DNA from: Streptomyces sp. TLI_053
GTDB taxonomy: Bacteria; Actinomycetota; Actinomycetes; Streptomycetales; Streptomycetaceae
Assembly: GCF_900105395.1 (NCBI RefSeq)
Contig: NZ_LT629775.1
Coordinates: forward strand, 1,116,001-1,180,000
Reading direction: 5' to 3'
Length of the DNA stretch: 64,000 bases
The notes beneath the pieces were generated by a model, which saw nothing but the letters and a program-made list of their open reading frames with translations, made no database searches and had not been told where the DNA came from. Shown in pieces: positions 8,443 through 51,974 of this stretch (positions are counted from its first letter, which is position 1; every line of letters starts with the position of its first letter). The position numbers were made by a program, and so were the translations under genes.

Positions 8443-8680
8443 CGTCCTACCCCCTCCGGTCCGAGGCCCGGAACCCGGCGCCTCGCTCCCCCAAATCCTG
8501 ACGCATCGTCAACCAACCGACAACGTAAAGAGGTTGTGCTTCGTCGGCGACCGAACCCGGACCCGGGCGGACCGGATGCGCACGGCGCTCCGGGACTGAC
8601 ACCGCGGCGGGCGGTGCGCTATGTTCCGTACGGAATCGCCCCGGTCGGGGCGGGTTGCCGACCGGGTGGGGGCAGGCAGC

Positions 8681-9442
8681 ATGGACAGCTCGCGCGACCG
8701 GACCGGGGCGGCGGGGCGGGCAAGACCCGGCACCGCCCCGGTCGTTCCCTTCGAACGCGGCCCGTTCACCGGGCTCGGCACCGACGACCTGCGGACCCTG
8801 CACGGCCTGGGCACCAGACGGGTCTACTCGCACAACGAGGCCCTGATGATCGAGGGCGAGCCCGGCGACCGGGTCGTCGTCCTGCTGAGCGGCTGGGTGA
8901 AGGTCGTGGCCGCCACCGAGGACGGCGGCGAGGCCCTGCTCGCCATCCGCCAGCCCGGCGAACTCGTCGGTGAACTGGCCGTCCTGGACGGCGAACCGCG
9001 CTCCGCCAGCGTGCTCGCCGTCCGCACCAGCACCACCAGGGAGATCGGCGCCGCCGCCTTCCTCGACTTCCTCGCCGACCGCCCCGCCGCCGCGCTCGCG
9101 CTGCAGCGCTCCGTCACCCGCAAACTCCGCCTGGCCACCCGCTACCGGATCGACGTCGGCCACGGCACCGGCCTCGCCCGGCTCGCCCGCACCCTGCTCA
9201 TCCTGCTCGACTCCTGCGGCGTGCCCACCGAACAGGGTTCGCGGATCGACATCCCGCTCAGTCACGCCGACCTGGCGGCGCTCGCCCGGCTGTCCGCCGC
9301 CAGCGTCGAACGCTCCCTGCGCACCCTCCGGGACCAGGGCGCCGTCCGCACCGGCTACCGCGGGCTCGTCGTCCGGGACCGCGCCCCGCTCGCCGCGGCG
9401 GCCGGACTCGCGCTCCCCGCCGACCGGGGCGGCCGGGCATGA
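8681..9442 (+). CDS. Crp/Fnr-family transcriptional regulator
   Basis: A 253-residue regulator. The N-terminal half is a cyclic-nucleotide-binding-like beta barrel with GDRVVVLLSGWVKVV and the phosphate-cassette region PGELVGELAVLDGEPRSASV; the usual R-(S/T)-A tip is present as RSAS. After a dimerisation helix comes a Crp-type HTH: DLAALARLSAASVERSLRTL. The ATG at 8681 (GGGGGCAGG upstream) is preferred over an in-frame ATG at 8621. The gene overlaps the next one by four bases (ATGA), so the two proteins are made together. The neighbour is cyclase-like, so a nucleotide ligand made or sensed by that protein is possible but unproven. Confidence 0.9.
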   Translation: MDSSRDRTGAAGRARPGTAPVVPFERGPFTGLGTDDLRTLHGLGTRRVYSHNEALMIEGEPGDRVVVLLSGWVKVVAATEDGGEALLAIRQPGELVGELAVLDGEPRSASVLAVRTSTTREIGAAAFLDFLADRPAAALALQRSVTRKLRLATRYRIDVGHGTGLARLARTLLILLDSCGVPTEQGSRIDIPLSHADLAALARLSAASVERSLRTLRDQGAVRTGYRGLVVRDRAPLAAAAGLALPADRGGRA

Positions 9443-10635
9443 GCGGCGCCCTCTCCCCCAGGCTGCGCCGGGTCGTCCTGGTCGTCGACATCGAGGCGTA
9501 CGGCGGCCGGCCCTACTGGGTGCAGCAGGCCGTCCAGGAGCGGCTGGACCGCGCCCTGGACCACGCCTGCGGGCGGGCCGGCGTCGACCGGGCGCGCTGC
9601 GAGGCCCAGGACCGGGGCGACGGGCAGCTGCTCCTGCTGCCGCCCGACGTCGACGAGGCCAAGGCGCTGCCCGGTCTCGTCCTCGGCCTGCGCGACGCCC
9701 TGCACACCCTCAACCGGGCACCCGGGACGGCGGGACGGCTCCGGGTCCGGGCTGCCCTCGCCCAGGGCGGGGTGCAGCGCGCCGCCCTGGGGTACGTGGC
9801 CCGCGCCGTGGAGACGGCCTGCCGACTGCTCGACTGCGAGCACGCCCGGTCCGCGCTCAAGGACACGCCGGACACCGATCTGGCGCTCGTGGTCACCGAC
9901 GACCTGTTCGCGGACGCCTTCGCTGCGGGCGCCGGCGGCCTCCCCGTGGACGACTTCACGAGCGTCACGGTGGCCGTCCCGGCGAAGCGCTTCAAGACGA
10001 AGGCCTGGCTCGGCACACCCCGGCACGGCGCGCTGGTGGTGCTCCCCCCGCCGTCCGCGCCCGGCACCCCGCGCCGGGACCGGCGCTCGGCGCTGCTGCG
10101 CGGCCTCGGCGACGCCGCCGCCGGGATCGCCCTCGGCGCGACCCCGCCGGCCCGCCACCACGACGACCCGCCGCCGCACCACGACGGGGACCCCGACGGG
10201 CACCACGGGCACCACGACCACGGGCACCAGGACCACGGCCGGCACGGCGGGGACGGGCACGGGCACGGCGACCACGACGGGGAGCACGGCCACGACGCGC
10301 ACGGCGGTGACCACGACGGCGGTGACCACGACGGCGGTGACCACGACGGCTACGGGGACGAGCCGCACGGGCGGCACGGCGGGCAGCACTCCCCCCACCA
10401 GGACGGGACGCCGCTCCACGAGGACACCTGGCACCACGACGGCTGGGGCACCGACGCCTGGTCCACCGACCCGCACCACCACGGCCCCCACCACGAGGAC
10501 ACCGGCACCCCGTACGGCGAGGACCACGGCGGCCACGACGGGCAGCACGGCGACCACCACGACCCCTTCGCCTCCCCGGACCACCCCGACCACGACCCCG
10601 GCGCCGGCCACTGGTGGCACGGCCCGCACCACTGA
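9439..10635 (+). CDS. Degenerate class III nucleotidyl-cyclase-like protein with His-rich tail
   Basis: A 398-residue protein of unusual build. Residues 10-200 align by motif with class III nucleotidyl cyclases: metal-binding Asp17 (VVDIEAYG) and Asp61 (RGDGQLLL) are kept, as are the LRVRAALAQGGV strand and an Arg in ETACRL. However, the transition-state Asn of the normal NxxxR motif is missing, so catalysis is doubtful. Residues 239-398 hold about 44 His with Asp and Gly, a probable metal-binding, disordered tail. The gene overlaps the Crp/Fnr gene as ATGA. I infer a nucleotide- or metal-sensing partner of that regulator. The tail remains in frame with fully G/C third positions. Confidence 0.75.
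   Translation: MSGALSPRLRRVVLVVDIEAYGGRPYWVQQAVQERLDRALDHACGRAGVDRARCEAQDRGDGQLLLLPPDVDEAKALPGLVLGLRDALHTLNRAPGTAGRLRVRAALAQGGVQRAALGYVARAVETACRLLDCEHARSALKDTPDTDLALVVTDDLFADAFAAGAGGLPVDDFTSVTVAVPAKRFKTKAWLGTPRHGALVVLPPPSAPGTPRRDRRSALLRGLGDAAAGIALGATPPARHHDDPPPHHDGDPDGHHGHHDHGHQDHGRHGGDGHGHGDHDGEHGHDAHGGDHDGGDHDGGDHDGYGDEPHGRHGGQHSPHQDGTPLHEDTWHHDGWGTDAWSTDPHHHGPHHEDTGTPYGEDHGGHDGQHGDHHDPFASPDHPDHDPGAGHWWHGPHH
10306..10350 (+). repeat. Three perfect 15-bp tandem repeats inside the His-rich tail
   Basis: The unit GGTGACCACGACGGC occurs three times without change and encodes the repeated pentapeptide GDHDG. It suggests that the tail grows by slippage. Confidence 0.9.
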
Positions 10636-10662: not shown

Positions 10663-10833
10663 TCACCAGCCGTCCTCGGCCGACCGGTCGTGGTCCGGAG
10701 CCGGGTCGGGCTCGTGGCCGTCGTCGCCGTGGTAGTAGTCGGACGGGGACTCGTAGGCGGTGTGGTCGGCGGCCTCGATGACGTCCTCGAGGTGGAGGCG
10801 GCCGTCGTCCCAGGTCCGGTCGGGGTCCGTCAT
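10663..10833 (-). CDS. Small acidic protein, last gene of the GTPase/Hsp70 operon
   Basis: A 56-residue, strongly acidic protein (start MTDPDRTWDDGRLHLED, end DHDRSAEDGW) rich in Asp, Glu, His and Tyr. No family was recognised. The ATG at 10833 overlaps the stop of the upstream dynamin-like gene (ATGA), which argues for a real, co-translated gene despite its size. A role as adaptor or cargo in the GTPase module is possible. Its His/Asp-rich composition resembles the tail of the convergent cyclase-like protein whose stop is only 27 bp away. Confidence 0.7.
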   Translation of the reverse strand: MTDPDRTWDDGRLHLEDVIEAADHTAYESPSDYYHGDDGHEPDPAPDHDRSAEDGW

Positions 10834-12317
10834 GGGGTTCCTTCCGGTGGAGTGGCGAAGTAGATGGCCTCGCACAGTTCTCGGGCGATCCGCGCGTACC
10901 GGCCGACGTCGCGCAGCGGGCCGTCCTCCAGGCGGCGCCAGTCGCGGGCGGCCCGCGCCGCCGCCCGGCGCAGTTCGGCGGGGGTGGTGTCCTCGGGCAG
11001 CCGGAGCCGGGCGGCCGGGGTGCGGCCGGTGGCGAGGGCGATCAGGGCCCCGCTCGCGTCCTGGTCGAGTTCGATCCGCCGGCCGGCCACGGCGGCCAGG
11101 GCGCGGGCGAGTTCGTGGCGGCGGAGCTCCGGGTGCCGGCGCAGCTCGCCGATCCGGGCGCGGGCCTGCCGGATCAGGTCGGCGGGGAGGTCCTCGCCGG
11201 TGCCCAGGGCCGCCTCGACGGCGCCGAGGGCCGCGGCCGAGCGCAGCACGTCGGCGGTGTCGACGAAGCGGCGGCCCAACTGCTCGACCACGGCCGCGAT
11301 GCCGGACGCGGCGCGGAACTCCGCCAGCAGCGCGGCGGCCCCGATCGGCCGCCCCTCGGCGCGGTGCCGGCGGGCGGCCGCGAGGGCGGTGTCGATGCCG
11401 TAGACGCCCAACAGGCCGAACAGCCGCTCGCGTTCGGCCCGGGTGAGTGTGCCGGTGTCCTGGTCGAGGAAGCGCCGGCCGGAGTAGAGGGCCCGGCGCA
11501 GTTCACCGGCGGGTGCGTCGGCGAGCCGGCGGACGAGCGCGGCGTCCGGTTCGGTGAAGTCGTCCCCGAGGGCGGTCTGGGCGAGCAGCCCGACCACCGG
11601 CAGGACCTCGTCGACGAGGCCGGCGAGCCGGCCGGCGTTGGTCGCGGCGACCTGCCGGGCGCGCGGCCAGGGGTCGCCGTGGCCCTCGCCGAGCAGGTCG
11701 ATCCGGCTGAGCACGCCGACGGCGTTGAGCGCGGTCATCCGGCCGTCGGCCTGGGCGCGCAGGGCGCCGAGGGCCTCGGCGTCGCCGGCGCCGGGGTGCG
11801 GCATGACGTAGATCATCGCGTCCGCGCGGGCGAGGGCGTCCAGCGCGGGCCCGTCGAGGCCGCTGAGCGAGTCCAGGCCGGGGGTGTCGACGAGTTCGCA
11901 GTCACCGACGGGGCGCAGTCCGGCGGCCTCGACCACCACCTCGGCGATCTGCTCGACGGGCAGGCCGAGGTCCCGGGGGTCGCGCGGCAGGCCGCCCGCC
12001 CGCCAGCGCGCGGTCCCGTCGCGGTGGCGGACCTGGATCCGGTTGAGCGGTCCGGGCCGGAACCAGGCCACCACGGTGGTGCACTCGGTGGCGGCGGACG
12101 CGGCGAGCCGGCGCCCGAGCAGGGCGTTCACCAGGGTGGACTTGCCCGCGTTCATCCGGCCGCCGACGGCGATCCGCAGGGCGCCGCCGGCCAGCCGCTC
12201 GCGGGCCGCCCGCACCGCCGCGGCGGGCGGTCCCGGGGGCAGCTGCTCCTCCAGCCCGGCGGTGAAATCGGCCACCAGCGGCGCGAGTCGGCCGCTCTGC
12301 GGCGGGGCGGCCGTCAT
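10830..12317 (-). CDS. Dynamin-like GTPase, soluble form
   Basis: A 495-residue GTPase of the dynamin/BDLP type. The P-loop GRMNAGKS is at 53-60, a switch-I Thr in TECTTVVAW near 77-86, the G3 motif DTPG at 144-147, and a G4-like SRID at 204-207 in place of TKxD. The C-terminal half is almost entirely helical (Arg/Ala/Leu-rich), as expected for neck and trunk helices. No transmembrane hairpin or paddle was seen. Both ends overlap neighbours as ATGA, so it is embedded in the operon. It may pair with the membrane-type dynamin encoded two genes upstream, as bacterial dynamins often work in pairs. Confidence 0.85.
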   Translation of the reverse strand: MTAAPPQSGRLAPLVADFTAGLEEQLPPGPPAAAVRAARERLAGGALRIAVGGRMNAGKSTLVNALLGRRLAASAATECTTVVAWFRPGPLNRIQVRHRDGTARWRAGGLPRDPRDLGLPVEQIAEVVVEAAGLRPVGDCELVDTPGLDSLSGLDGPALDALARADAMIYVMPHPGAGDAEALGALRAQADGRMTALNAVGVLSRIDLLGEGHGDPWPRARQVAATNAGRLAGLVDEVLPVVGLLAQTALGDDFTEPDAALVRRLADAPAGELRRALYSGRRFLDQDTGTLTRAERERLFGLLGVYGIDTALAAARRHRAEGRPIGAAALLAEFRAASGIAAVVEQLGRRFVDTADVLRSAAALGAVEAALGTGEDLPADLIRQARARIGELRRHPELRRHELARALAAVAGRRIELDQDASGALIALATGRTPAARLRLPEDTTPAELRRAAARAARDWRRLEDGPLRDVGRYARIARELCEAIYFATPPEGTP

Positions 12318-13258
12318 CGGGCGGCGGCCGAGACCGGTGCGTCCGCCGGGGGCACGGTGCCGCGCTGCTCGCTGTCCAGCAGCCGGGCCAGGCGGCGCGC
12401 CGGGCGGCCGAGCCGGGCCAGCTCGGCCTTCTCCTCCCGACCGACGCCCTCCCAGTACTTGAGCCGCTTGGCCGCGCTCTCCACCCCCTTGAACCAGGAG
12501 ACCATGCTGTCGATCCCGTTGGCCTCCTTGCGCAGGTCCTTGATCAGCGCCTTGGTCGACCCGAGGCTCTCGGCCACCTCCTCCGCCCGGTGGGTGAGCA
12601 GGGTGGACAGGCACCACAGGACGGGCACGGCGACGCCGCGCGTCGTCGTGCCGCAGGAGACGGCGACCGCCGTCCCGCGCACCCGGCCGCCACTGACGAG
12701 CAGTTCCTCCAGGGGGGCCGCCGCGGCCCGGGCGCGGGCCCAGTCGGCGGGGTCGGTGACCAGGTCGGCCTTGGTGTAGACGAGCACGACGGGCAGCGGT
12801 GCCGGCTGCTCGTCGACGGCCCGGTGCAGCAGTACCACGGTGCGGCGCACCTCGTCCTGGGACTCGGGGTCGGTGACCAGGCGCTGGGTGTCGGCGAAGA
12901 CGACCACCGCGTCCGCGTGGCGGAGCCGATCCAGCAGTTCGGCGGTCTCCGGGTCGTCGGCGGCCGAACCGGTGAGCGCCCCTCCCCGGTAGTCCGTCCA
13001 GTCGAAGCCGAGGACCTCGCGGCGGCCGAACTCGAGACCGGCCGACAGCTCCGTCCGCCGGGAGGACGGCGGCGGATAGACACCGCGCCCCAGCAGCTTG
13101 CCGGTGGTGGTGAGTTGACGGGCGAGGGTGGCGTCGGCGGTGACCAGCCGGAAGCCCTTGCGGCCGGCCGCGAGACGGGTGTACATCGCGGCGAGGTAAC
13201 TGCTCTTGCCCGCGCTGCTGTGGCCGAGGGCGACCAGCCGCAGTTGGGTGAGGTCCAT
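12314..13258 (-). CDS. Small TRAFAC-type GTPase C (GHSSAGKS / TDYRGG)
   Basis: A 314-residue GTPase. P-loop GHSSAGKS is at 12-19, followed by an unusual G3 motif in WTDYRGGAL (D-x-x-G at 89-92) and G4 TKAD at 162-165. The C-terminal ~80 residues are helical and basic. It is a clear paralogue of the GTPase encoded at 18122-19018: both share the TAD...(G/Y)RYP..., TDxRGGAL, and (T/P)DPE blocks. The shape recalls the double-GTPase families described in bacterial conflict and signalling clusters, but that assignment is from memory of motifs. It overlaps the downstream dynamin-like gene by 4 bp. Confidence 0.85.
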   Translation of the reverse strand: MDLTQLRLVALGHSSAGKSSYLAAMYTRLAAGRKGFRLVTADATLARQLTTTGKLLGRGVYPPPSSRRTELSAGLEFGRREVLGFDWTDYRGGALTGSAADDPETAELLDRLRHADAVVVFADTQRLVTDPESQDEVRRTVVLLHRAVDEQPAPLPVVLVYTKADLVTDPADWARARAAAAPLEELLVSGGRVRGTAVAVSCGTTTRGVAVPVLWCLSTLLTHRAEEVAESLGSTKALIKDLRKEANGIDSMVSWFKGVESAAKRLKYWEGVGREEKAELARLGRPARRLARLLDSEQRGTVPPADAPVSAAAR

Positions 13259-13263
13259 GGCGG

Positions 13264-15312
13264 TCAGCTCCGGTCCGGGTCGGGGCGGCCGGTGGCGGCC
13301 AGGCCGTGCGCGAGGGCGAGGCCCTCGTCGCGCAGGGTGGTGAGGGCGCCGATCCGGCGCTTGGTGCGGTCCCGGGCGGCGGCGAGTTCGGCGGCGGAGG
13401 CGGCCAGGTTGCGCCGGTGCTCGGCGAGTCGGCGTTCCAGCCGGAGCCGCTCGTCGGCGATCGCCCGGTCCAGCGCGAGGCCGAGCCGGTCGGCCAGTTC
13501 GTCGACGTGGTCGGTGATCTGCGCGGGAATCTCGGTGCTCAGCTCGGTCAGCACCCGGTTGAGGTGGCGGGTGGCGTCGCCGCGGACCCGGCCGAGTTCG
13601 GCGCGCTGGCGCCGGCGGCGGGTGAGGACGGCGAGCATCGCGTAGCTGGCCACCGCGGGCAGCAGCACGCTGCTGGTGAGCAGGCCGATCACGGTACCGA
13701 AGGTGGCGGCGGTGCCGACGCTCGGGATCACGTTCTCGATCATCCCGAGCGGGCCGCCGTCGCGGTGGGTGGAGTGCACCATCTCCGGGAGCAGGGTGCC
13801 GCGTTCGGCGCGGATGACGGCGCCCTCCTCGACGAGTGCCAGCTCGGCGCCGGGCCCGGGACCGCCGGCACCTCCGTCGGCGCGCCCGTCGGGGTTCCCG
13901 GTGTCGAGCACGGTGGAGCACTCGCGGCGGACGCGCTCCTCCAGGACGGCCAGACCGCGGCGGGCCGCGTTGTCCAGCTGCAGCCAGACCGCCTCCACCT
14001 GTGCCTCCAGCTCGGCCGGGAACTCCTCGGCCAGTGCGGCGGGTTCGGAGGTGGCGATCTTCGCCTCGGCGACCCTGCGGATGTCGTTGAGGCTGCGCCG
14101 GAAACCCAGCTGGAGGGTGTTCTTGAGGTCGCGGGAGCCGGTCGTCAGGGCCCGCCGCCACTGCGCGCTGTCCGGCTGGAGCAGCCGCAGCGCCTCCTCG
14201 GCCCGCTCGACCTCGGCGGCCAGGCCCGGTTCCTGCTGGAGCGACCGGAGCCGGAGTTCCTGCTCGGCCAGCGGCACCGCGAGCGCCGCGAGCGCGACGT
14301 GCACCACGTTGGCGAGCCGCAGCTCGGCGGCGCGGGCGGCGATCCGGCGGCGCAGCAGCGCCTTCAGCGGTTCGAAGCCGCTCTCCTCCAGGAGCTCGGC
14401 CGCCTCCTGGAGTTCGCCCGAGTCGGCGGCCGCGACGGCGTCCCGGCGGGCCCGGTTGCTGACCGGGAACCAGGGTGCCTCGGCGTGCCGCGGCGCGTGC
14501 CGGGCGAGCAGTTCGCGGTTGCGCTCGACGACCGCGGGCCAGGCGTCGTAGCTGTCGGTCTTGGTGAGCACGAACACCGTCTCGGCGGTGCGCTCGGTCG
14601 CCCGGCCGAGGAACTCCAGTTCGGAGCGGGTGAGTTCGCTGGATCCGTCGACCACGAACACCAGCGCGTCGGCGTTCTCCAGTGCGGCCAGGGCGAGTTC
14701 GGCGTGCCCGCCGACGAGACCGCCGACGCCGGGGGTGTCGACGAGTTCCAGTCCCGCGGCCAGCAGCGGGACGGGCAGCTCGACCTCGACGTGGTGGACG
14801 TCGAGTCGGCGCGGACGGCCGGTGCGGGGGTCGACGGCGGCGTACTCGGCGATCCGCTCCAGCGGGACCGGCTCGGCGCGCGGCGGGGCCTCCGGGGCGT
14901 CGCCGTCCGAGCGCAGGTGGGCGACGGCACGCGGGTGCTCGCCGTACCGGACGGCGATGTGGACTCCGGTGGCGACGTCGGCGTCGACCGGGAGCAGGTC
15001 CGGGACGCCGACCAGGCTGTTGATGGTGGAGCTCTTGCCGCGCTTCTTCTCGCCGACCACGACCAGGGTGGCGGCGCCGTCGGCGGCCCGGGCGGCCTCG
15101 TCGCGGAGGCGCCGGACGCCGTCGCCGGGGTGGGAGGCGGAGCCGTTGTCGGGGTCGGAGCCGTTGCCGTTGCTGCTGCCGTTGCTTCCCCCGCCGTCGG
15201 ACGGGGCCTCGGCGACGGCGGTGCGGGCGGCGCGTTCGAGGAGGTCGGCGGTGCGGGCCGCGAAGTCCAGCACGCGGGCCCGGGAGGGGGCTTCGGGGCG
15301 GGGCGGGGTCAT
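13264..15312 (-). CDS. Dynamin-like GTPase with membrane hairpin
   Basis: A 682-residue bacterial dynamin-like protein. P-loop GEKKRGKS is at 87-94, G3 DTPG at 192-195 and G4 TKTD at 250-253. A Ser/Asn/Gly/Asp-rich linker (residues 38-64) precedes the G domain. Long helices follow, and a hydrophobic hairpin at about 522-564 (two adjacent membrane-spanning stretches, LLTSSVLLPAVASYAMLAVL) is the likely membrane paddle. It ends in a basic coiled coil. The true start is the ATG at 15312, which overlaps the upstream stop; the much longer open frame is a shadow. It probably remodels or tethers membrane. Confidence 0.88.
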   Translation of the reverse strand: MTPPRPEAPSRARVLDFAARTADLLERAARTAVAEAPSDGGGSNGSSNGNGSDPDNGSASHPGDGVRRLRDEAARAADGAATLVVVGEKKRGKSSTINSLVGVPDLLPVDADVATGVHIAVRYGEHPRAVAHLRSDGDAPEAPPRAEPVPLERIAEYAAVDPRTGRPRRLDVHHVEVELPVPLLAAGLELVDTPGVGGLVGGHAELALAALENADALVFVVDGSSELTRSELEFLGRATERTAETVFVLTKTDSYDAWPAVVERNRELLARHAPRHAEAPWFPVSNRARRDAVAAADSGELQEAAELLEESGFEPLKALLRRRIAARAAELRLANVVHVALAALAVPLAEQELRLRSLQQEPGLAAEVERAEEALRLLQPDSAQWRRALTTGSRDLKNTLQLGFRRSLNDIRRVAEAKIATSEPAALAEEFPAELEAQVEAVWLQLDNAARRGLAVLEERVRRECSTVLDTGNPDGRADGGAGGPGPGAELALVEEGAVIRAERGTLLPEMVHSTHRDGGPLGMIENVIPSVGTAATFGTVIGLLTSSVLLPAVASYAMLAVLTRRRRQRAELGRVRGDATRHLNRVLTELSTEIPAQITDHVDELADRLGLALDRAIADERLRLERRLAEHRRNLAASAAELAAARDRTKRRIGALTTLRDEGLALAHGLAATGRPDPDRS

Positions 15313-16919
15313 GAGGGTTCTCCCGTGGCGGAGTCGTCGGTCGGCCGGGGGTCGGGGGCCTCGGAGCGGGCCTGCCGCGGTTCCGAGGGAGGAGCGGGCG
15401 GCGGGGTCTCGGGTTCGTCGAACTCGCCGAACATGCCGGAGAGGTCGGCCTGCTGGGGATCGACGGCACGGGCCTGCCGGTACGACGGGGGCTGTGCCCG
15501 GTGGCCGGGGGCGGCGCGGCCGCCGGGCCCCCGGTCGGTGGCGTCCCGGTCGAAGGGCCCCGGATCGAAGGGCCCCCGATCGGCGGACCCCGGGCCCGAG
15601 GATTCCGGGCCGGTGGACGTCGGGCGGGCGGACGGCGGGTGGACGCCGCCGGGCGGCGCCGGACGTGCGGGTGGCTGGGGCGGGCCGGCCGAGGGTCCGT
15701 CCAGGTCGCCGTAGTAGCGGCGGCCGGTGACCGGATCGTCGCCGTAGCGCCGGCCGCGGGCCCCGGAAGACTTCCCTCCGGGCGGCCCGGACCTCGCGGG
15801 CGGCTCCGAGGACGCCGGCGATCCCGGCGGCTCGGGTGTCCTGGCCCTCCCGGCCGCCCCGGCTGCGCCCGCCGGCCCGGCGGAGTCCGGCTCGGCCGGG
15901 AGGAGGCCGCGCGCGACCCTTCTCAGCGCCCGGCGGCCGGCCCGGTACGCCTCCCCGATCAACGACTCCGGGTCGGCGGACCCCCCGGACCCCCCGTCGT
16001 GCCCGGCCGGACCCCCCGCGGGGCCGTGCCCCGGCCCGGGCACGGGTCGCGGCGGCGGGGGCGGCGGGGGTGGCGGCGGGGGCCGCAGCAGCTCGTACCC
16101 CCGGCAGTCCGCACTGGTCAGATGGGTGAACCGGTGGGCGTCCGCGTCGGAGCGCCGCCGCCAGCCGGTGGCCAGCAGGCACCGGTCCCGGCTCACCGCG
16201 GCGGCCGCCCACAGACCCGCCGCGTCCGACTCGGGCAGCAGGTGGGTCCCGGCCGAGTGCGCGGGCAGCCAGACCGCCGCCGCGGGCGCCGACGCCGGCA
16301 GCCCGCGCCACGGGGCGGCGACCGGCCGGGTGGTCGTGGGCTCGGCCTCCTCCCGGCCGACCGCCTCCCAGGTCGGTGTGATCCACTCGGCGTAGACCGG
16401 CCCCGCCCACTCGGCCAAGTGCTTCGCCAGTTCGGCGAGTTCGGGGATCCGCCCGACGGCCGCGCCCGGCTCCGCCGCCCGGTACCAGCCCACGAAGCCG
16501 TACAGCGGGCGACCGAACCGGTCGTGCACCATGGTCCGGCTGATCAGGCCCAACTCGCAGGCGGCGCCGACCAGAACGCCGCGGGCGTCCCGGTGGAGCA
16601 GGAAGCGCGGTCCGGCCTCCAACCGGTTGCCGCCCGCGACGGCGGCGCGCACGGCGTCCGCCACCGCGCCCTGCCGGTCGACCCCGGCGGGGAGCGCCCG
16701 CCACCACTGGTCGACCTGGAGGGTGCGGCCGTACACGAGTGCCGACCAGCCGCCCGGCGCGGCCGGGCCCGCTGGGGACGGGCCCGCTGCGGACGCCTCC
16801 GGGACGGCGGGCTCCGGTGCGGCGGGCTCCGGGACGGCGCCCTCCGGTGCGGCGGGGCCGGGTGGCGGGAAGGGCCCGCCGACCGGATCGGGTTCCGGCC
16901 CGTGCTCTGTGTTCGTCAT
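15309..16919 (-). CDS. Proline-rich protein with an unrecognised folded domain, GTPase operon
   Basis: A 536-residue protein not assignable to a known family. Residues 1-57 are Pro/Ala/Glu-rich; about 58-278 look folded (aromatic and hydrophobic, e.g. YGRTLQVDQWWRALP, MVHDRFGRPLYGFVGWYR, VYAEWITPTW). Then come twelve consecutive prolines (280-291) and a long disordered tail of Pro, Gly, Ser, Arg and Asp, ending in a short conserved-looking patch, ADLSGMFGEFDEPE. The ATG at 16919 is used; its stop overlaps the dynamin-like start as ATGA. It may be an adaptor that binds GTPases through the folded domain and recruits partners through the tail. Confidence 0.7.
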   Translation of the reverse strand: MTNTEHGPEPDPVGGPFPPPGPAAPEGAVPEPAAPEPAVPEASAAGPSPAGPAAPGGWSALVYGRTLQVDQWWRALPAGVDRQGAVADAVRAAVAGGNRLEAGPRFLLHRDARGVLVGAACELGLISRTMVHDRFGRPLYGFVGWYRAAEPGAAVGRIPELAELAKHLAEWAGPVYAEWITPTWEAVGREEAEPTTTRPVAAPWRGLPASAPAAAVWLPAHSAGTHLLPESDAAGLWAAAAVSRDRCLLATGWRRRSDADAHRFTHLTSADCRGYELLRPPPPPPPPPPPRPVPGPGHGPAGGPAGHDGGSGGSADPESLIGEAYRAGRRALRRVARGLLPAEPDSAGPAGAAGAAGRARTPEPPGSPASSEPPARSGPPGGKSSGARGRRYGDDPVTGRRYYGDLDGPSAGPPQPPARPAPPGGVHPPSARPTSTGPESSGPGSADRGPFDPGPFDRDATDRGPGGRAAPGHRAQPPSYRQARAVDPQQADLSGMFGEFDEPETPPPAPPSEPRQARSEAPDPRPTDDSATGEPS

Positions 16920-16969
16920 CGCGTCATCCCGTCCATGAGTCGCTCCGTCGGTCCATCGCTCCACGGCCC

Positions 16970-18025
16970 TCAACCCGTCAGCAGTCGGCCGTCACGGAAG
17001 ATCGGGATCCCCCGCAGCTCGTCGTCCAGTTCGCGGCAGCGGTCCTGCGCCTTCTGGAGGTCGGCCGCGGTCGCGGAGCTGCTCGCGACCAGTCGGTCGA
17101 TCTGCTCACGGGCGCTGTTCTTCTCGGTGCCCTTGAACAGCCCGCCGAAGAAACCCTGGCTGAGCGCGGCCAGTTCACCGCGCGAGGCGTCCAGGCTGGC
17201 GGAGAGTTGGGACATCTGCTGCCGGTTCCGCACGATGCCCTCGCTGAGGTAGTGGCGGAGGCTGAAGATGATCGGCAGGTGCAGGTTCTTCGGGGCGATC
17301 CGGCTGGCGTCCACGGTGCTCTGGGCCGCCGCGCCGAAGTTGCCGAGCTGCACGGCGCAGAGCGCCATCGTCACGCCCTCGGCCTCGTCACCGGCCAGCC
17401 AGGGCAGGAGGTTGCGGAGGTTGCGCACCACCGTCTGCAGCGCCTCCGAGGCCCGCATGCCGGTGCGCTCGGCCAGCAGGTCGGCCTTGGTGAGCAGGAC
17501 GGTCACGCCGGGCACCGGATCGCCGTCGGCCAGCCGGGCGCTGAAGACCTCGGAGATCGCCCGGCCGAAGCGGGAGATCTCCATCGGCTCGCCGAAACGC
17601 TCCAGGTTGCCGGGGGTGCCGTGCCGGATCCACTCGGCGACGTGGGCGGAGTCGAGCGCCACGATGATGCTGTCGGACTCCGCGATCCGCTCCTGCAGCA
17701 TGACCACGTCCTTGGCGGTGCCGCGGCGGTCCAGGGCGGCGTTGCCGCGGAAGTCGACGCAGTCGATGGTCATGAGGTCGCGCATGCCACGCCGGAACAC
17801 GAACTCGTAGCCGATCGGCTCCTCCGAAGTCGCCCTGGGCATCGTGCCGTTGCGGCGGAGCTGGGCCCAGTGCTCGGCGAGGTCGAGGTCGAGGTCGGGA
17901 TCGGTGGCGTAGAGGTAGTAACCCTGCACGCCCATCGAGAGACGGTTGTACATGCCGTGCAGGTAGGCGGTCTTGCCGGAGCCGCTGGCACCGAGCATGG
18001 TCAGGGTGAGCTCGGGAACGTCCAT
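16970..18025 (-). CDS. Small TRAFAC-type GTPase B (GASGSGKT / VDFRGN)
   Basis: A 351-residue GTPase. P-loop GASGSGKT is at 12-19, the G3-like CVDFRGNA at 89-96 (D-x-x-G) and G4 TKAD at 179-182. It is more distant from the other two small GTPases of the operon but shares their layout and the D-(F/H/Y)-R-G switch. The C-terminus from about 270 is a helical, Ser/Gln/Arg-rich segment with FFGGLFKG, perhaps a membrane- or partner-binding helix. It lies between GTPase A and the proline-rich protein on the same strand. Confidence 0.85.
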   Translation of the reverse strand: MDVPELTLTMLGASGSGKTAYLHGMYNRLSMGVQGYYLYATDPDLDLDLAEHWAQLRRNGTMPRATSEEPIGYEFVFRRGMRDLMTIDCVDFRGNAALDRRGTAKDVVMLQERIAESDSIIVALDSAHVAEWIRHGTPGNLERFGEPMEISRFGRAISEVFSARLADGDPVPGVTVLLTKADLLAERTGMRASEALQTVVRNLRNLLPWLAGDEAEGVTMALCAVQLGNFGAAAQSTVDASRIAPKNLHLPIIFSLRHYLSEGIVRNRQQMSQLSASLDASRGELAALSQGFFGGLFKGTEKNSAREQIDRLVASSSATAADLQKAQDRCRELDDELRGIPIFRDGRLLTG

Positions 18026-18121
18026 GGTGCGGGGTCCTCTCGCTGAGCGGGGCAGGTCGGTCGGTCGGTTCGGGTCGGGCGGTGCGGGCGGGTCGGGCGG
18101 TACGGAGCCGGGAGGGTCGGT

Positions 18122-19018
18122 TCAGAACGAGAGGACGTCCTCCAGCAGTTCGCCCAGCCGGTCGGCCGGGGCCACCAGTGGCTCCAGGCGCGAGAGTTCG
18201 GCGGCCGCGCGGGCCTGGTCGCGGTCCCGGATCGAGGCCCAGGAGGGCTCGTCCTCCCACCAACTGCTGATCCGGTCCCACAGGGTGTCCCGCTGGTCGG
18301 CCTGGCGGGCCGAGGCCATCAGGCTCTCGATCGACGCGGACAGCTCCATGGCCCGGCCGACGATGCCGAACCGGAGCGTCCACAGCACCGGGAGCGCCAC
18401 GCCCTCCGGCTCCGGCCCGCAGACCAGCGGGATGAACGCGCCCTGGATGTGCCGGGTCTCCTGCACCGCCTCGATCAGCGGCAGGAACGGGACGAGGAAG
18501 CGCTCCTCCGCGTCGTCGGCGCCGAGGTCGACCAGGTCGGTCTTGGTGAGGGCGATCACCAGCGGGGTGAGGTTCTCCTCCCGGTCGGCGACCGCCTGGT
18601 GGACGCGGACGACGAGCCGGCGGACGTCCTCCGCCGCCTCCGGGTCGGTGTCCAGCCGCAGGGCGTCGACGAACAGCACGATCCCGTCGGCCCGGACCAG
18701 GTCGTCGTGCAGCCGGGCGGCCTGCGGGCTGGAGCGGCGGTGCTCGGTCAGCGCTCCGCCGCGGTGGTCCGTCCAGCGGAACGGGAAGATCTCGTCGCCG
18801 TCGTGGCAGAGCACGAACTCGTAGCAGTGGGGCCGGTCGCTGGCTCGCGGGTAGCGGCCGTTCAGGATGGCGCGGGCGTCGGCGAGCAGCGAGCGGTGGG
18901 CGTCGCGGTCCGCCGTGCGCAGGGTCATGCCCTCGACGCCGTCGCACATGGCGGCGTACATCAGGGAGAGGTAACTGGTCTTCCCGGCCGCGCTGTGGCC
19001 GAGCATCACGATGTCCAT
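18122..19018 (-). CDS. Small TRAFAC-type GTPase A (GHSAAGKT / TDHRGG)
   Basis: A 298-residue GTPase. P-loop GHSAAGKT is at 7-14, the G3 motif TDHRGG has D-x-x-G at 84-87, and G4 TKTD is at 158-161. The C-terminal third is helical and acidic, with the aromatic WDRISSWWEDEPSWAS stretch. It is a paralogue of GTPase C. The start is supported by GAGGAACC upstream. It follows the Hsp70-like gene after a 221-bp spacer, so an internal promoter or processing site is possible there. Confidence 0.85.
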   Translation of the reverse strand: MDIVMLGHSAAGKTSYLSLMYAAMCDGVEGMTLRTADRDAHRSLLADARAILNGRYPRASDRPHCYEFVLCHDGDEIFPFRWTDHRGGALTEHRRSSPQAARLHDDLVRADGIVLFVDALRLDTDPEAAEDVRRLVVRVHQAVADREENLTPLVIALTKTDLVDLGADDAEERFLVPFLPLIEAVQETRHIQGAFIPLVCGPEPEGVALPVLWTLRFGIVGRAMELSASIESLMASARQADQRDTLWDRISSWWEDEPSWASIRDRDQARAAAELSRLEPLVAPADRLGELLEDVLSF

Positions 19019-19057
19019 GCGGTTCCTCGGATCGGGTCGGGGCGGGGCGGGTCGGGA

Positions 19058-19087
19058 CTGATCGGAGCGGGGCTGATCGGAGCGGGG
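19058..19087. repeat. 15-bp tandem duplication in the operon spacer
   Basis: CTGATCGGAGCGGGG occurs twice head to tail. The whole spacer 19019-19239, and also 18026-18121, is G-rich on the plus strand with drifting GGTCGG/CGGGG motifs, so the transcript there is C-rich. No gene or clear promoter was found in either spacer. Confidence 0.8.
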
Positions 19088-19239
19088 CGAGGCGGGGGCG
19101 AGACCGGACGGATCGGCGCGGGGTACGGCGCAGCGGTGCGCCCGCAGGTGCGCGGAGCCCGGTCGGGGCCGTTTCCGGGCAGGGCGGAGCGCGGAGCGGC
19201 GGTGCGTCCGCGCCCACCCCGCCGGCCGCCCGGCAGGGC

Positions 19240-20487
19240 TCAGTCGTAGTCGAACCAGGGGTCGACCTCGTCCGGGTAGTGGGCGACCGTCCAGCGGTCC
19301 TGGCCGGCCGGGTCGGATCCGGCCTCCCCGGCCGTGGCGCCGTCGGGGGGCGGTGCGGCGGGCGGATCGGTGAGCGCGCCGAGGGCCACGGCGGCCTTCG
19401 GGTCGGCCGCCGGCTCGGGGATCCGGCCGAGCCGGGCGGCGATCAGGTCGGCCACCGGCGGTGTCCGGCTGGCCGCCCCGCAGAGCACGACGGCCCCGAG
19501 CTCGGCCGGGGTCAGACCGGCGCGGGCGACGGTCCGTTCCAGCAGTACCACCGAGGCGGTGAGCGCAGGGGTGACGGCGGCCCGGTACTCACCGCCCTGC
19601 ACGACGAACGGGTCCGGGTAGCCGGGCACCGCCAGGTACACCGTGCCGGTGCTCGACAACGACTCCTTGGCCAGGGTCAGTTCACGTGCGAGCTGGGACC
19701 GCTGATGGGCGCCGGCGGAGGTCCGGTCGCTCCGGAGCCGTTGCCAGGGCTCCGGGTCGAGGTCCAGGGCCCGGTCCCGGAGCAGTTCGAACAGGGCCTG
19801 GTCCAGGTCGCGGCCGCCGAAGTCCGGATTCCCGGCCACCGCGACGGCGCGGTAGCCGTCCCCCTCCCGGCGGAGGACGGCGGTGTCCACGGTGCCGCCG
19901 CCGAGGTCGTAGACGGCGATCGGCCCGGCCTCGCCGGCCTGGGCGGTCGCCGCGTGGAAGCGGGCCGCCGCGACCGGCTCGGGCAACAGCTCCGGCGCGT
20001 CCAGCCCGGCCCGCCCGGCGGCCTCGACCAGCCGGTCCAGGTCGGCCTGCGACCAGTCGGCCGGGTGTGTGAGCACGGTGCGGGCCGGGGCCGTCCCGCC
20101 GCACCGCACCCGCGCCTCGGCGGCCACCCGGGCCAGCACGACGGCGACCAGGTCGACGGTGTCCACCTCCCGGTCGTCCAGCAGGACGGCCGACTGCCGC
20201 AGCAGCGCCCGCTTGGGGTGGTGCTCGGCGCGTTCCGGCCGCTGGGAGGCGAGTTGCACGGCGGCCCGGCCGGTGAGCAGCCGGCCGTCGTCACCCAGGC
20301 AGACCAGTGACGGCAGGTAGCGGCTGTTCTCGATCTCGACCGCCGCCGCCCCGCTCCCCGCACCACCGGACCCCGCACCGGACTCCACGCCGGGCCGCGC
20401 GCCGGATTCGCTGCCCGGCTGCTCGACACGGACGGCCGCGGTGGTGAAGCAGGTACCGAAGTCGATGGCCAATGACCAGTCAGACAC
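19240..20487 (-). CDS. Hsp70-like ATPase without substrate-binding domain
   Basis: A 415-residue actin-like ATPase of the Hsp70 family. Phosphate-1 motif IDFGTCFTT is at 8-16, phosphate-2 DLGGGTVD at 194-201, the adenosine motif CGAASRTPPV at 336-345, and DPKAAVALGAL at 362-372. DnaK continues about 230 residues further with a peptide-binding domain and lid; here the protein stops after a Pro/Ala linker and an acidic aromatic end, HYPDEVDPWFDYD. The start is GTG 20487 behind GAGGA; the long frame upstream is a shadow of the phosphotransferase. As first gene of the operon it may act as an ATP-dependent scaffold or switch rather than a general chaperone. Confidence 0.88.
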   Translation of the reverse strand: MSDWSLAIDFGTCFTTAAVRVEQPGSESGARPGVESGAGSGGAGSGAAAVEIENSRYLPSLVCLGDDGRLLTGRAAVQLASQRPERAEHHPKRALLRQSAVLLDDREVDTVDLVAVVLARVAAEARVRCGGTAPARTVLTHPADWSQADLDRLVEAAGRAGLDAPELLPEPVAAARFHAATAQAGEAGPIAVYDLGGGTVDTAVLRREGDGYRAVAVAGNPDFGGRDLDQALFELLRDRALDLDPEPWQRLRSDRTSAGAHQRSQLARELTLAKESLSSTGTVYLAVPGYPDPFVVQGGEYRAAVTPALTASVVLLERTVARAGLTPAELGAVVLCGAASRTPPVADLIAARLGRIPEPAADPKAAVALGALTDPPAAPPPDGATAGEAGSDPAGQDRWTVAHYPDEVDPWFDYD

Positions 20488-20617: not shown

Positions 20618-20821
20618 AATGGCATGGTCATTGCCGGTTGGACCGGGGCGCCGGCAGCCGGTGGCACCCGACCCGGAAGCCGGCTCGGGTGGCACCCCGC
20701 TCCCCCGGACCGGGGTGCCGCGACCAGTCTCGGCACACCGTTCGACCGAGACACCGTCAGCTGACCGAATCCGGCCCCGACTCCGCCGACTTCACGGACT
20801 TCACCGGTTCCGTCGAAGCCG

Positions 20822-20857
20822 CCCGTTCCGCCCGTTCCGCCCGTTCCGCCCGTTCCG
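20822..20857. repeat. Four perfect 9-bp tandem repeats upstream of the phosphotransferase
   Basis: CCCGTTCCG is repeated four times without change, ending 83 bp upstream of the ATG at 20941. Flanking sequence contains related TTCNNCG steps. The unit keeps the reading frame (Ala-Arg-Ser), but no start codon or ribosome-binding site supports translation there. Confidence 0.85.
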
Positions 20858-20940
20858 CCGATTCGACCGCGCGGCCGGTCCGTGCGAGAGTCGGAACGAA
20901 CGAGCCGGGGTACACCGCGGCCCCGCCGAGGGAGGTCCCG

Positions 20941-21870
20941 ATGAACACACCCGGCCCGGTCCACATCCCCGAGGCCTTCGCCGCCCCCTACCGCGCACAC
21001 GGCGCCGCCGAACGCCGGTGGATCCGCGAACTCCCTTCCCTTGCGGCCGAGTTCCTCGACCGCTGGAGTCTGCTCCCGGACGGTCCCGCCGCCCACGGCA
21101 TGGCCTCCCTGGTCCTCCCGGTCCGACGGCCCGACGGCACGCCCGCCGTCCTGCGACTGCAACAGGTCCGCCCCGAGACCGCCGGGGTGGCGGCCGGACT
21201 CCGGGCCTGGCGTGGCCAGGGCACCGTCCTGCTGCTCGACCACGACCCCGACAGCGGCACCCAGTTGCTCGAACGCCTGGACGCGGCCCGCCCGCTCGCC
21301 ACGGTGGCCGACGACGACACCGCGCTGCGCCTGCTCGCCGCACTGATGGCCCGGCTCACCGCCGTCCCCGCCCCACCGGGCCTGCGCGGGCTCCGCCGGA
21401 TCGCCACCGCGATGCTGGACGAAGCACCCCGCGCCACCCCGGCCCTGCGCGACCCGGACGAACGCCGGCTGCTGCGGGACTGCGCGGCGGCGGTCGCCCC
21501 ACTGCTCGACGAGCCCGGCGACCGGCTGCTGCACTGGGACCTGCACGACGGCAACGTGCTGGCCGGCGAGCGCGAGCCCTGGCTCGTGATCGACCCCGAA
21601 CCACTGTCCGGCGACCCGGGGTTCGAACTGCTCCCCGCCATCGACCAGCGCTGGGACACCGTGCTGGCCGGGGCCGACGCGGGCCGCACCGTGCTGCGCC
21701 GCTTCGACCTGCTCACCGAGACGCTAGGCCTGGACCGCTCCCGCGCCGCCGGCTGGACCCTCGCCCGGGTGCTGCAGAACGCCCTCTGGGACATCGAGGA
21801 CGGCCGCACCGCGCTGGAGCCGACCCAGGCGGCCATCGCCACCGCGCTGCTGCGCCACCGCCGGGGGTAG
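20941..21870 (+). CDS. Aminoglycoside/hydroxyurea-type antibiotic phosphotransferase
   Basis: A 309-residue small-molecule kinase of the aminoglycoside 6-phosphotransferase/hydroxyurea-resistance type. The Brenner-type catalytic motif LLHWDLHDGNVL (H-x-D-x4-N) and the metal-binding VIDPEPLSGDPGFE are present; the N-terminal lobe with VLPVRRPDGTPAVLRLQQV matches the nucleotide-binding strands. Members phosphorylate streptomycin-like aminoglycosides or hydroxyurea; the substrate here cannot be read from sequence, and a resistance phenotype is not implied. The ATG at 20941 is preceded by GAGGGAGG; upstream in-frame sequence is repetitive and not credible as protein. Confidence 0.9.
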   Translation: MNTPGPVHIPEAFAAPYRAHGAAERRWIRELPSLAAEFLDRWSLLPDGPAAHGMASLVLPVRRPDGTPAVLRLQQVRPETAGVAAGLRAWRGQGTVLLLDHDPDSGTQLLERLDAARPLATVADDDTALRLLAALMARLTAVPAPPGLRGLRRIATAMLDEAPRATPALRDPDERRLLRDCAAAVAPLLDEPGDRLLHWDLHDGNVLAGEREPWLVIDPEPLSGDPGFELLPAIDQRWDTVLAGADAGRTVLRRFDLLTETLGLDRSRAAGWTLARVLQNALWDIEDGRTALEPTQAAIATALLRHRRG

Positions 21871-30095: not shown

Positions 30096-30309
30096 TCTGG
30101 GGCCCCTTTCAGCACGACAGCATGACGGTCTTGAGGGTATTGACGGTACTGACGTCGCCCACGTCGCCCCGTCGACGACGGTGGCGACGGTGACGACGGA
30201 CCGACACCGTGCGGCTCCGCACGGAGACGTACCGGCCACCGGAATCGTAGGCCCTCCGCCCGGCGCGCCGGAGCGGAGCAGGGGCGGCGGCGGACCGTAC
30301 CGTCGGCGC

Positions 30310-31161
30310 ATGTCCTTCGGCCTGCTCGCGGCCCTGGCCGCCGCCCTGCTCACCGGCTCCGCCACCGTGCTCCAGGCGGTCGGGGCCCGCCGTGCCTCGG
30401 CCGGGCTGCCGCCCGGCGGGGCGGCGGCGCTCGCCGGGGCGTTCCGGCAGTGGCCGTTCCTGGTGGGCGTCGGGATGGACATGCTCGGCTTCGGCGCCGA
30501 ACTCCTCGCCCTGGAGCGGCTCCCGCTGTACGAGGTCGAGGCGGTGCTGGCCTCCGCCCTCGCCGTGACCGCCGTCGGCGCCGCCCGGGTGCTGCACGTG
30601 CGGCTGCGGCGCAGCGAGTGGGCCGGGGTGGCGGCGGTCTGCGCGGGGCTGTGCGTGCTCGCCGTGAGCGCCGGGCGGGACGGGCCCGGCCACGGCGGCA
30701 CGGGGCTGCGGCTCGGTGCGCTGCTCGTCTCGCTGCTGCTGATCGGTGCGGGTTGGGCCGTGGTCCGCTTCACCGACCACCGCCGGGCGCCGCTGCTGGG
30801 TCTGGTGGCGGGTCTCCAGTTCGGCGTGGTCGGCGTCGCCGTCCGGGTCCTGCCCGACCCCCGGCTGCCGGACCTGCTCACCGAACCCTCCGCCTACGCG
30901 GTCGCCCTGGCCGGGCTCGGCGGTTTCGCCGCCCTCACCTCGGCCATGCAGACCGGGTCGGTCACGGCCGCGACCGCCGCCATGGTCCTCGGCGAGACCC
31001 TGGGGCCGGCGGTCGTCGGTGTCCTCCTCCTCGGTGACCACACCCGCCACGACCTCACCCCGCTCGCCGTGCTGGGCTTCGCCGCCGCTGTCCTCGGCGC
31101 CCTCACCCTGGCCCGCTTCGGCGACGCCGAACAGCCCGCCACCGCCGGCCCGGCGGGCTGA
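30310..31161 (+). CDS. DMT-type integral membrane protein (EamA-like)
   Basis: A 283-residue membrane protein with about nine hydrophobic segments in two halves, the layout of drug/metabolite transporters of the DMT superfamily. The N-terminal MSFGLLAALAAALLTGSATVLQAVGAR and the C-terminal half with SAMQTGSVTAATAAMVLGETLGPAVVGVLLLGD fit the multidrug-resistance-like EamA group often found in actinomycetes. Substrate unknown. It is divergent from htpG and has no obvious operon partner. No strong ribosome-binding site precedes the ATG. Confidence 0.8.
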   Translation: MSFGLLAALAAALLTGSATVLQAVGARRASAGLPPGGAAALAGAFRQWPFLVGVGMDMLGFGAELLALERLPLYEVEAVLASALAVTAVGAARVLHVRLRRSEWAGVAAVCAGLCVLAVSAGRDGPGHGGTGLRLGALLVSLLLIGAGWAVVRFTDHRRAPLLGLVAGLQFGVVGVAVRVLPDPRLPDLLTEPSAYAVALAGLGGFAALTSAMQTGSVTAATAAMVLGETLGPAVVGVLLLGDHTRHDLTPLAVLGFAAAVLGALTLARFGDAEQPATAGPAG

Positions 31162-51793: not shown

Positions 51794-51974
51794 GCCGTAG
51801 AGGATCTCGGCGTCCGACCGGCCGACGGCCGTCCGGTGGATGAACAATTGCGGTCCAGGCAACAGCCGATGACGGCTAATCGCCCCAGAACCGTACGCGA
51901 GCGTCCTTGTGCCCCGAAGGTGGTCGGGAACGGTCACAGGGGTCACGGGACCAGGAGTGGACCGCGCCGCCGGA

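Follow-up and report, generated by a model that had tools for sequence, protein, structure and literature searches.

A module of DO-GTPase relatives, a longin-like candidate partner, paired dynamins and an Hsp70-type domain in Streptomyces sp. TLI_053

The subject of this report is a set of eight adjacent genes in Streptomyces sp. TLI_053, which brings together an Hsp70-type nucleotide-binding domain, three small GTPases, a protein with a proline-rich tail (PRO), two dynamins and a small acidic protein (ACID). The set was analysed within a stretch of 64,000 nucleotides (contig NZ_LT629775.1, positions 1,116,001-1,180,000), here called the window, and positions below are counted from its first letter. 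The host genome is a single contig of 9.9 Mb and, judged by its GTPase B, which is 92% identical to the Kitasatospora purpeofusca copy, lies near that species. All eight reading frames are intact and are found on the minus strand, from 20487 down to 10663, in the order that a first-pass annotation of this DNA had described. In transcription order they are the Hsp70-type protein (19240..20487, 415 amino acids, GTG start), reduced to the nucleotide-binding domain; GTPase A (18122..19018, 298 amino acids), of the DO-GTPase2 family; GTPase B (16970..18025, 351 amino acids), the most broadly conserved of the module's GTPases; PRO (15309..16919, 536 amino acids), previously listed as a proline-rich unknown; dynamin 1 (13264..15312, 682 amino acids), which is IniA-like with a predicted membrane hairpin; GTPase C (12314..13258, 314 amino acids), again of the DO-GTPase2 family; dynamin 2 (10830..12317, 495 amino acids); and ACID (10663..10833, 56 amino acids). 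The junctions measure +221, +96, +50, -4, +5, -4 and -4 base pairs (bp), and the last five genes are joined by three 4-bp overlaps and one 5-bp gap, which is the tight packing that had been claimed. Given the upstream gaps of 221 and 96 bp, a single transcript may span all eight genes as a candidate only.

The GTPases define the family context of the set. All three window copies carry the P-loop, the TKxD motif and the D(H/F/Y)RG motif attributed to them, the last in the forms DHRGG, DFRGN and DYRGG. This motif had been described as an unusual switch; it is present, but D-x-R-G amounts to the common DxxG (G3) motif in which one x is arginine. Against the Pfam model DO-GTPase2 (PF19993, gathering cut-off 27 bits), GTPase A scored 35.9 and GTPase C 47.1 bits, above the cut-off, and GTPase B 20.1 bits, below it; no match to this model was found in the window genome outside the operon. 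Across 57 GTPase rows, from which the loci L013, L016, L019 and L047 were excluded, the P-loop is kept in all, TKxD in 56 and D(Y/F/H)R(G/A) in 45, and the 12 rows lacking the last motif all come from Bacillota or Bacteroides loci and mostly read DYPGG. A conserved glutamate in the Walker B motif is given as a mark of the DO-GTPase family in its description (Kaur et al., 2020; PMC7159879). When this residue is taken as the E of DxxGE, it is absent from the window trio and its relatives: a glutamate follows the G3 motif in none of the 45 rows and in none of the other 12, whereas four GAP1-linked GTPases read DAAGE or DPMGE.

In a quick tree of these GTPases, from which L046 was excluded as well, a B clade of 32 rows (Shimodaira-Hasegawa-like approximate likelihood-ratio test, SH-aLRT, 97) and an A/C clade of 24 rows (89), which includes GTPase A, stood apart from the GAP1-linked outgroup (98). 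Since actinobacterial and cyanobacterial members occur in both clades, the tree suggests that the B and A/C lineages are an old GTPase pair. The GAP1-N2 domain (PF20013) is absent from the window genome and from the genomes G043 and G019 and present in 6 of 61 family genomes (for GAP1-N1 no genome-wide search was made), and no GAP1 match was found among the operon proteins or the scanned flank genes. On sequence comparison, the operon GTPases are thus kin of the double-GTPase (DO-GTPase) family, on a separate branch that lacks both the DxxGE glutamate and GAP1.

The place beside these GTPases is taken by PRO. Residues ~47-285 of the window copy form a domain common to all GTPase B/PRO loci, and the proline-rich part, predicted to be disordered (22% proline), is an actinobacterial tail only. 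Of 36 loci, from four phyla and perhaps five, 34 have PRO directly beside a DO-GTPase gene; this count retains the repeated or near-identical loci L013, L016 and L019 and the fragment L047, and the two misses are L044, where a small reading frame was called in between, and L047. Because the loci were found through GTPase B, this adjacency is a result and not a search criterion, and it points to the PRO domain as a newly recognised candidate partner of DO-GTPases. Seven residues are invariant in 37 members, namely R65, D70, P77, R137, F142, G144 and W184 (19, 24, 31, 91, 96, 98 and 138 in the numbering of the cropped domain). By sequence no match was obtained among PDB chains, the window copies of PRO and ACID gave none in Pfam, and the 37 PRO members gave three stray Pfam hits, each to a single member. 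A simple hydropathy rule placed a C-terminal membrane segment in 18 of 40 PRO tails, including 10 of 11 from Bacillota/Bacteroides loci, both Trichodesmium copies, the copy at L015 and one copy of each of five cyanobacterial pairs; by the same rule none was found in the dynamin-linked actinobacterial copies.

AlphaFold models were obtained for the window PRO (predicted local distance difference test, pLDDT, 90.1) and for a Selenomonadaceae copy that is 15% identical to it (pLDDT 88.1), and both were compared with known structures by VIA-align, in which Z values below 8 may reflect mere common arrangements. For the window model, the matches were the longin domain of Lst4 (Z 6.5, 116 residues, 4.2 Å), the FLCN complex (Z 6.2, 106 residues, 4.0 Å), TagF (Z 5.8, 193 residues, 6.0 Å) and GATOR1 (Z 5.5, 113 residues, 3.9 Å), with MglB, TRAPP and Ragulator lower. 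For the Selenomonadaceae model they were a Sec22b entry (Z 4.8, 118 residues, 4.4 Å), Lst4 (Z 4.7, 111 residues, 4.3 Å), TRAPPII (Z 4.5, 109 residues, 3.5 Å), TagF (Z 4.4, 163 residues, 8.4 Å), GATOR1 (Z 4.4, 125 residues, 4.7 Å) and Ragulator p14/MP1 (Z 3.4, 95 residues, 3.8 Å). NPRL2, FLCN, Sec22b and the TRAPP subunits we take to be of longin type; among the structure rows only that of Lst4 names the longin fold. The telling point is that a copy sharing 15% identity with the window PRO leads to the same kind of function, that of GTPase-bound domains, and on these models the N-terminal domain of PRO rather probably has a longin-like fold. Three points count against this assignment: both models were built on the same 31 rows, the best longin rows (Z 6.5 and 4.8) lie under the trust level of the tool, and TagF, a type VI secretion regulator, tops the Foldseek search with the Selenomonadaceae model at E 0.03. 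Foldseek gave no match past E 0.001 for either model and many GFP rows for the window model. The idea that PRO is GAP1 in disguise was also considered and rejected, the hhalign comparison with GAP1-N2 giving Prob 0.1, a weak negative with only 7 GAP1 rows.

Both dynamins exceed the Dynamin_N cut-off of 27 bits, with 70.4 bits for dynamin 1 and 40.3 bits for dynamin 2. The best PDB match of dynamin 1 is IniA (6j72, E 4.1e-32 over amino acids 59-470), and a weak hydropathy segment near its C-terminus fits the membrane hairpin that had been proposed. For dynamin 2 there is a weak match (E 9.8e-7) to the cyanobacterial dynamin-like protein 2j68, and no hydropathy segment passes, in agreement with its annotation as soluble. 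In PADLOC both dynamins match LeoA (75.6 and 50.9 bits) and LeoBC (65.8 and 27 bits), weak matches that reflect shared dynamin domains. The match of the Hsp70-type protein to PF00012 (72.9 bits) runs from position 105 to 368 of the 599-position profile and stops there, so that the protein is indeed an Hsp70-like ATPase without the peptide- or substrate-binding domain, and the window copy has both the DFGT and the DLGGGT motifs. Two further dynamin pairs lie outside the window in the same genome, 10 kb apart (L087, G000:C1:1310001-1330000), each beside an Hsp70 protein (798 and 912 amino acids, with sub-threshold beta-propeller matches), with a gene for an ECF sigma factor between the pairs; a third Hsp70, of 468 amino acids, is also there. 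Hsp70 with a dynamin pair is thus found repeatedly as a unit, which became joined to GTPase/PRO on one or two occasions.

The co-occurrence of these genes in other genomes, on which the proposal of a module had been made to depend, was found. GTPase B occurs in 4 of 150 Streptomycetaceae genomes (E <= 1e-5), the PRO-domain profile in the identical four (E <= 1e-10), and dynamin 2 in three (strict E <= 1e-30), every one among those four, the draws being apparently one and the same. The chance of coincidence would be 4.9e-8 for GTPase B with PRO and 7.3e-6 for dynamin 2 if the genomes were independent; they are related, and the values are guides only. In the one exception among the four (genome G019, locus L015), GTPase B and PRO are present but neither Hsp70 nor any strong dynamin. 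Wider draws gave 4 of 293 genomes for the order, 1 of 296 in a profile search across the phylum, solely the window's own genome, and 4 of 194 around a cyanobacterial genome. The full set, comprising Hsp70, GTPase B, PRO, two dynamins and at least one A/C-type GTPase, was observed in ten distinct Streptomycetaceae loci (the window, L014, L017 and L021-L027); L013 and L016 are the same contigs as L023 and L024, L047 is a fragment of 73 amino acids, and these and L019 were dropped from the counts other than that of the 36 loci. Gene content, conservation, co-occurrence and family assignments are all observations at these loci. The description of three paralogous small GTPases is true of the window; the trio occurs in only four of the ten loci (window, L014, L021 and L022) and is therefore a minority feature, the other six having two GTPases, and the constant is GTPase B with one A/C type. 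GTPase C is found in six loci (window, L014, L017, L021, L022 and L027). At L013 and L014 a third dynamin gene, similar to dynamin 1, stands beside ACID on the other strand.

Beyond this family, a tblastn search with GTPase B against 72,556 plasmid records gave three matches, every one cyanobacterial. On Anabaena plasmid pANA01 (L019) the order is Hsp70 (409 amino acids), PRO, A/C-type GTPase, GTPase B, PRO, C39 peptidase, an unknown, dynamin and dynamin, and a Dolichospermum locus (L031) is near-identical to it. Calothrix, Geminocystis, Brasilonema and genome G802 have three GTPases and two PRO genes without dynamins, and in Brasilonema and G802 Hsp70 adjoins this set. An annotated anti-phage dCTP deaminase lies ~5 kb from the module on the Geminocystis plasmid, and an NB-ARC/TPR protein stands beside Hsp70 in Brasilonema. 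A genome-contig scan with a 7-row GTPase B alignment yielded 27 loci and reached Bacillota, one Planctomycetota metagenome-assembled genome (MAG; L032, one short contig) and one Bacteroides MAG, the unit in these three groups being GTPase B and PRO alone. The Bacteroides copy (L040) nests beside a Clostridia MAG copy in the tree, so that a binning error is possible and Bacteroidota are not counted as certain. Two variants were seen in passing: a PTS EIIA domain (158.8 bits) and a DO-GTPase share one open frame in a rumen Selenomonadaceae MAG (L041:312-2045), and in genome G761 of the cyanobacterial draw GTPase B and PRO follow immediately on a gene for a protein kinase (L086:9989-11041).

Convergent with the operon, at 8621-10635 on the plus strand, lies a pair of genes overlapping by 4 bp, which the first-pass annotation had not included. 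The first encodes a Crp-family regulator (8621..9442, 273 amino acids) with a cyclic-nucleotide-binding domain (cNMP_binding 72.1 bits, HTH_Crp_2 51.3 bits), and the second, U398 (9439..10635, 398 amino acids), a predicted class-III-nucleotide-cyclase-like domain and a His-rich tail. A U398 homologue is present at the module in all ten Streptomycetaceae loci and a Crp homologue in nine, the stretch of L014 ending inside U398. In L024-L027 and L017 the arrangement differs from that of the window: the Crp gene stands immediately upstream of the Hsp70 gene, in the reverse orientation, with U398 beyond dynamin 2. The Crp/cyclase-like pair belongs to the module. U398 gave no Pfam, no PADLOC and no meaningful PDB match; its predicted class rests on an hhalign comparison with class III cyclases of PF00211 (Prob 76.7, E 2.1e-5, 127 columns), in which its invariant D17 and GDG are in register with the first metal Asp and the GD of the cyclases. 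As the U398 family is widespread (94 of 150 genomes), U398 alone is no marker of the module, and its three closest copies (351-384 bits, the next 190) are all in module genomes. An assignment of U398 as a Pycsar cyclase was set aside, since PADLOC left it unmatched and the Pycsar hits of the Crp protein were limited to its cyclic-nucleotide-binding part. Short palindromes upstream of the Hsp70 gene were considered as a Crp operator; they are confined to the three closest relatives, and therefore no operator is claimed. ACID, which lies between dynamin 2 (or the extra dynamin) and U398 on either strand, has a WDDG...DY...G..PDP sequence conserved in eight of the ten loci and was not found in L017 and L027. 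Elsewhere in the window, an aminoglycoside/hydroxyurea phosphotransferase-like gene (20638-21870, APH_6_hur, 145.7 bits) is divergent from the operon, a 917-amino-acid frame whose C-terminal part is Hsp90 (28128-30881, 433.5 bits) lies on the operon's strand ~8 kb upstream of it, and a 2563-amino-acid open frame with strong coding bias occupies 44255-51946.

Tentatively, we read the set as an accessory, horizontally moving, cyclic-nucleotide-regulated module for membrane protection, most likely against phage or envelope attack. Its core would be a switch made of GTPase B and a GTPase of the A/C type, possibly as a heterodimer, to which PRO would bind; the longin-like N-terminal domain of PRO may act as a GTPase-activating or scaffolding partner, and in many relatives a C-terminal helix of PRO itself would hold the protein at the membrane. 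Among the Streptomycetaceae this switch would govern the recruitment or assembly of the dynamin pair, in which dynamin 1, the IniA-like one, would act at the membrane and dynamin 2 would be the soluble counterpart, and the pair could patch, fuse or pinch a damaged or phage-attacked membrane. The Hsp70 nucleotide-binding domain would assist the assembly or disassembly of the complex, and the Crp/cyclase-like pair would couple expression of the module to a cyclic nucleotide. The physical contacts, the activity of PRO on the GTPases, the cyclic-nucleotide control and the protective role are the parts of this scheme that we infer. The defence reading draws on the patchy spread, the plasmids, the one defence-gene neighbour, the kinship with DO-GTPase systems, which their description presents as predicted conflict systems (PMC7159879), and the reported delay of phage lysis of the host by Bacillus subtilis DynA (PMC8844932). 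The first-pass idea that nucleoside triphosphates drive an assembly at the membrane would be in keeping with the dynamins and with PRO, which is often predicted to be membrane-anchored.

Several results weigh against the protective module. Dynamins and Hsp70 are missing from most relatives (Bacillota, Planctomycetota and several cyanobacteria), which carry GTPase B and PRO; 13 pattern matches on viral contigs were obtained and none was confirmed as a relative; and the flanks of the module in the window genome are syntenic in two close relatives, so that recent movement is not evident at this locus. An Hsp70 homologue is present in all ten Streptomycetaceae loci and in L019/L031, and its DLGGGT phosphate motif is kept in eight of the ten and broken in L023 (= L013) and L014, so that Hsp70 hydrolysis cannot be essential everywhere; its description as a nucleotide switch stands for the motifs of the window copy but needs care beyond it. 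In the dynamin tree, the Dolichospermum dynamins group with the L087 pairs (97/98 and 99/98) and not with those of the operon, which implies that the Hsp70/dynamin/GTPase/PRO combination may have arisen twice; in the approximately unbiased (AU) test a joint dynamin clade was not rejected (p 0.115 and 0.056). A single origin of the whole set was considered and set aside, being unsupported by the dynamin and Hsp70 trees and not rejected by the AU test, with long branches that make both unsafe.

The main rival assigns the GTPase/PRO switch to membrane traffic instead of defence, in vesicle release or in the control of secretion or polarity, with PRO resembling TagF or MglB and the dynamins pinching the membrane. 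TagF is indeed among the best structural matches of both PRO models, IniA is called a membrane-fission protein in the title of its report (PMC6715688), and LeoA, matched weakly by both dynamins, is reported to be linked to toxin release, perhaps by vesicles (PMC4159319). However, no secretion genes were found among the neighbours searched with Pfam, and a patchy, partly plasmid-borne spread is unlike that of a housekeeping traffic system; this explanation is judged unlikely, though deserving attention. The presence of a dynamin pair in a sporulating actinomycete could also make the set a lineage-specific variant of the Streptomyces sporulation and septation dynamins DynA/DynB, on whose role in sporulation work has reportedly been published. 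At the strict threshold, dynamin 2 turns up in too few genomes of the family draw to serve sporulation in common, and two more dynamin pairs are encoded in the genome, so that we hold such a variant, judged without comparing DynA/DynB sequences, to be very unlikely.

It could further be argued that GTPase/PRO and Hsp70 with a dynamin pair are two unrelated mobile modules that merely travel together, as GTPase B and PRO stand alone in Bacillota, Planctomycetota and L015, Hsp70 with dynamin pairs occurs without a DO-GTPase at C1:1.31-1.33 Mb of the same genome, and the dynamin tree favours a separate joining in cyanobacteria. Yet GTPase C lies between the two dynamin genes, in a run of genes with 4-bp overlaps, and the join is present in ten Streptomycetaceae loci and again in cyanobacteria, which leaves mere co-travel quite unlikely. 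A bolder reading of the set would make it a bacterial counterpart of the Rag-GTPase circuit, in which a heterodimer of two ancient DO-GTPase lineages, B and A/C, set by a membrane-linked longin protein, commands a dynamin pair in actinobacteria and cyanobacteria; this reading we regard as doubtful.

If the Rag-like reading were true, longin-controlled GTPase switching of dynamin-driven membrane remodelling would exist in bacteria. Should PRO be a longin-type regulator, it would provide a bacterial GTPase-longin switch outside MglA/MglB and the Asgard cases, coupled to membrane remodelling. DO-GTPases have been described with a GAP1 partner, and here a separate branch, spread over several phyla, comes with a different, still unnamed candidate partner domain, for which the model is longin-like. 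This branch is also tied to dynamins and a domain of the Hsp70 type. For the many bacterial dynamin pairs that await characterisation, the set would offer an upstream control that can be tested, and it is compact enough for phage-challenge and membrane-damage tests in non-pathogenic streptomycetes. The first-pass annotation knew of no described system with this set, and none was found in the accessible literature on DO-GTPases, dynamins with Hsp70, dynamin defence and IniA/IniC, subscription journals lying largely outside its scope; the GTPases and an Hsp70 without peptide-binding domain are, however, of known kinds.

Among known dynamin systems, mycobacterial IniA provides the nearest solved structure to dynamin 1, but its own operon is iniBAC; we know of no DO-GTPase/PRO link there, where no search was made. 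The LeoA and LeoBC models of PADLOC match both operon dynamins, and the rest of the operon gene set is, to our knowledge, no part of that system. B. subtilis DynA is likewise a bacterial dynamin, one that is reported to delay host lysis, but a lone two-headed one, without GTPase/PRO, Hsp70 or Crp/cyclase partners (PMC8844932). The Rag GTPases with GATOR1/FLCN and Ragulator, and MglA with MglB, are alike by analogy, as small GTPases governed by longin or roadblock partners, although PRO bears only a weak fold resemblance to these partners and the operon GTPases come from another family. With the DO-GTPase/GAP1 systems, the operon shares the Pfam family (GTPases A and C above the cut-off), the frequent occurrence of paralogous pairs and frequent membrane ties, and one of their GAP1-N2 themes includes Hsp70, in some cases with a second Hsp70 without the peptide-binding domain (Kaur et al., 2020; PMC7159879). 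That paper contains no occurrence of dynamin, longin or roadblock. Unlike those systems, the operon has DxRGG/N in place of DxxGE at G3, no zinc ribbons were seen in its set, and the longin-like PRO would occupy the place of GAP1. We read the set as a DO-GTPase-centred system, a kind that is known, with another partner, PRO, in the place of GAP1 and dynamins as the probable effectors.

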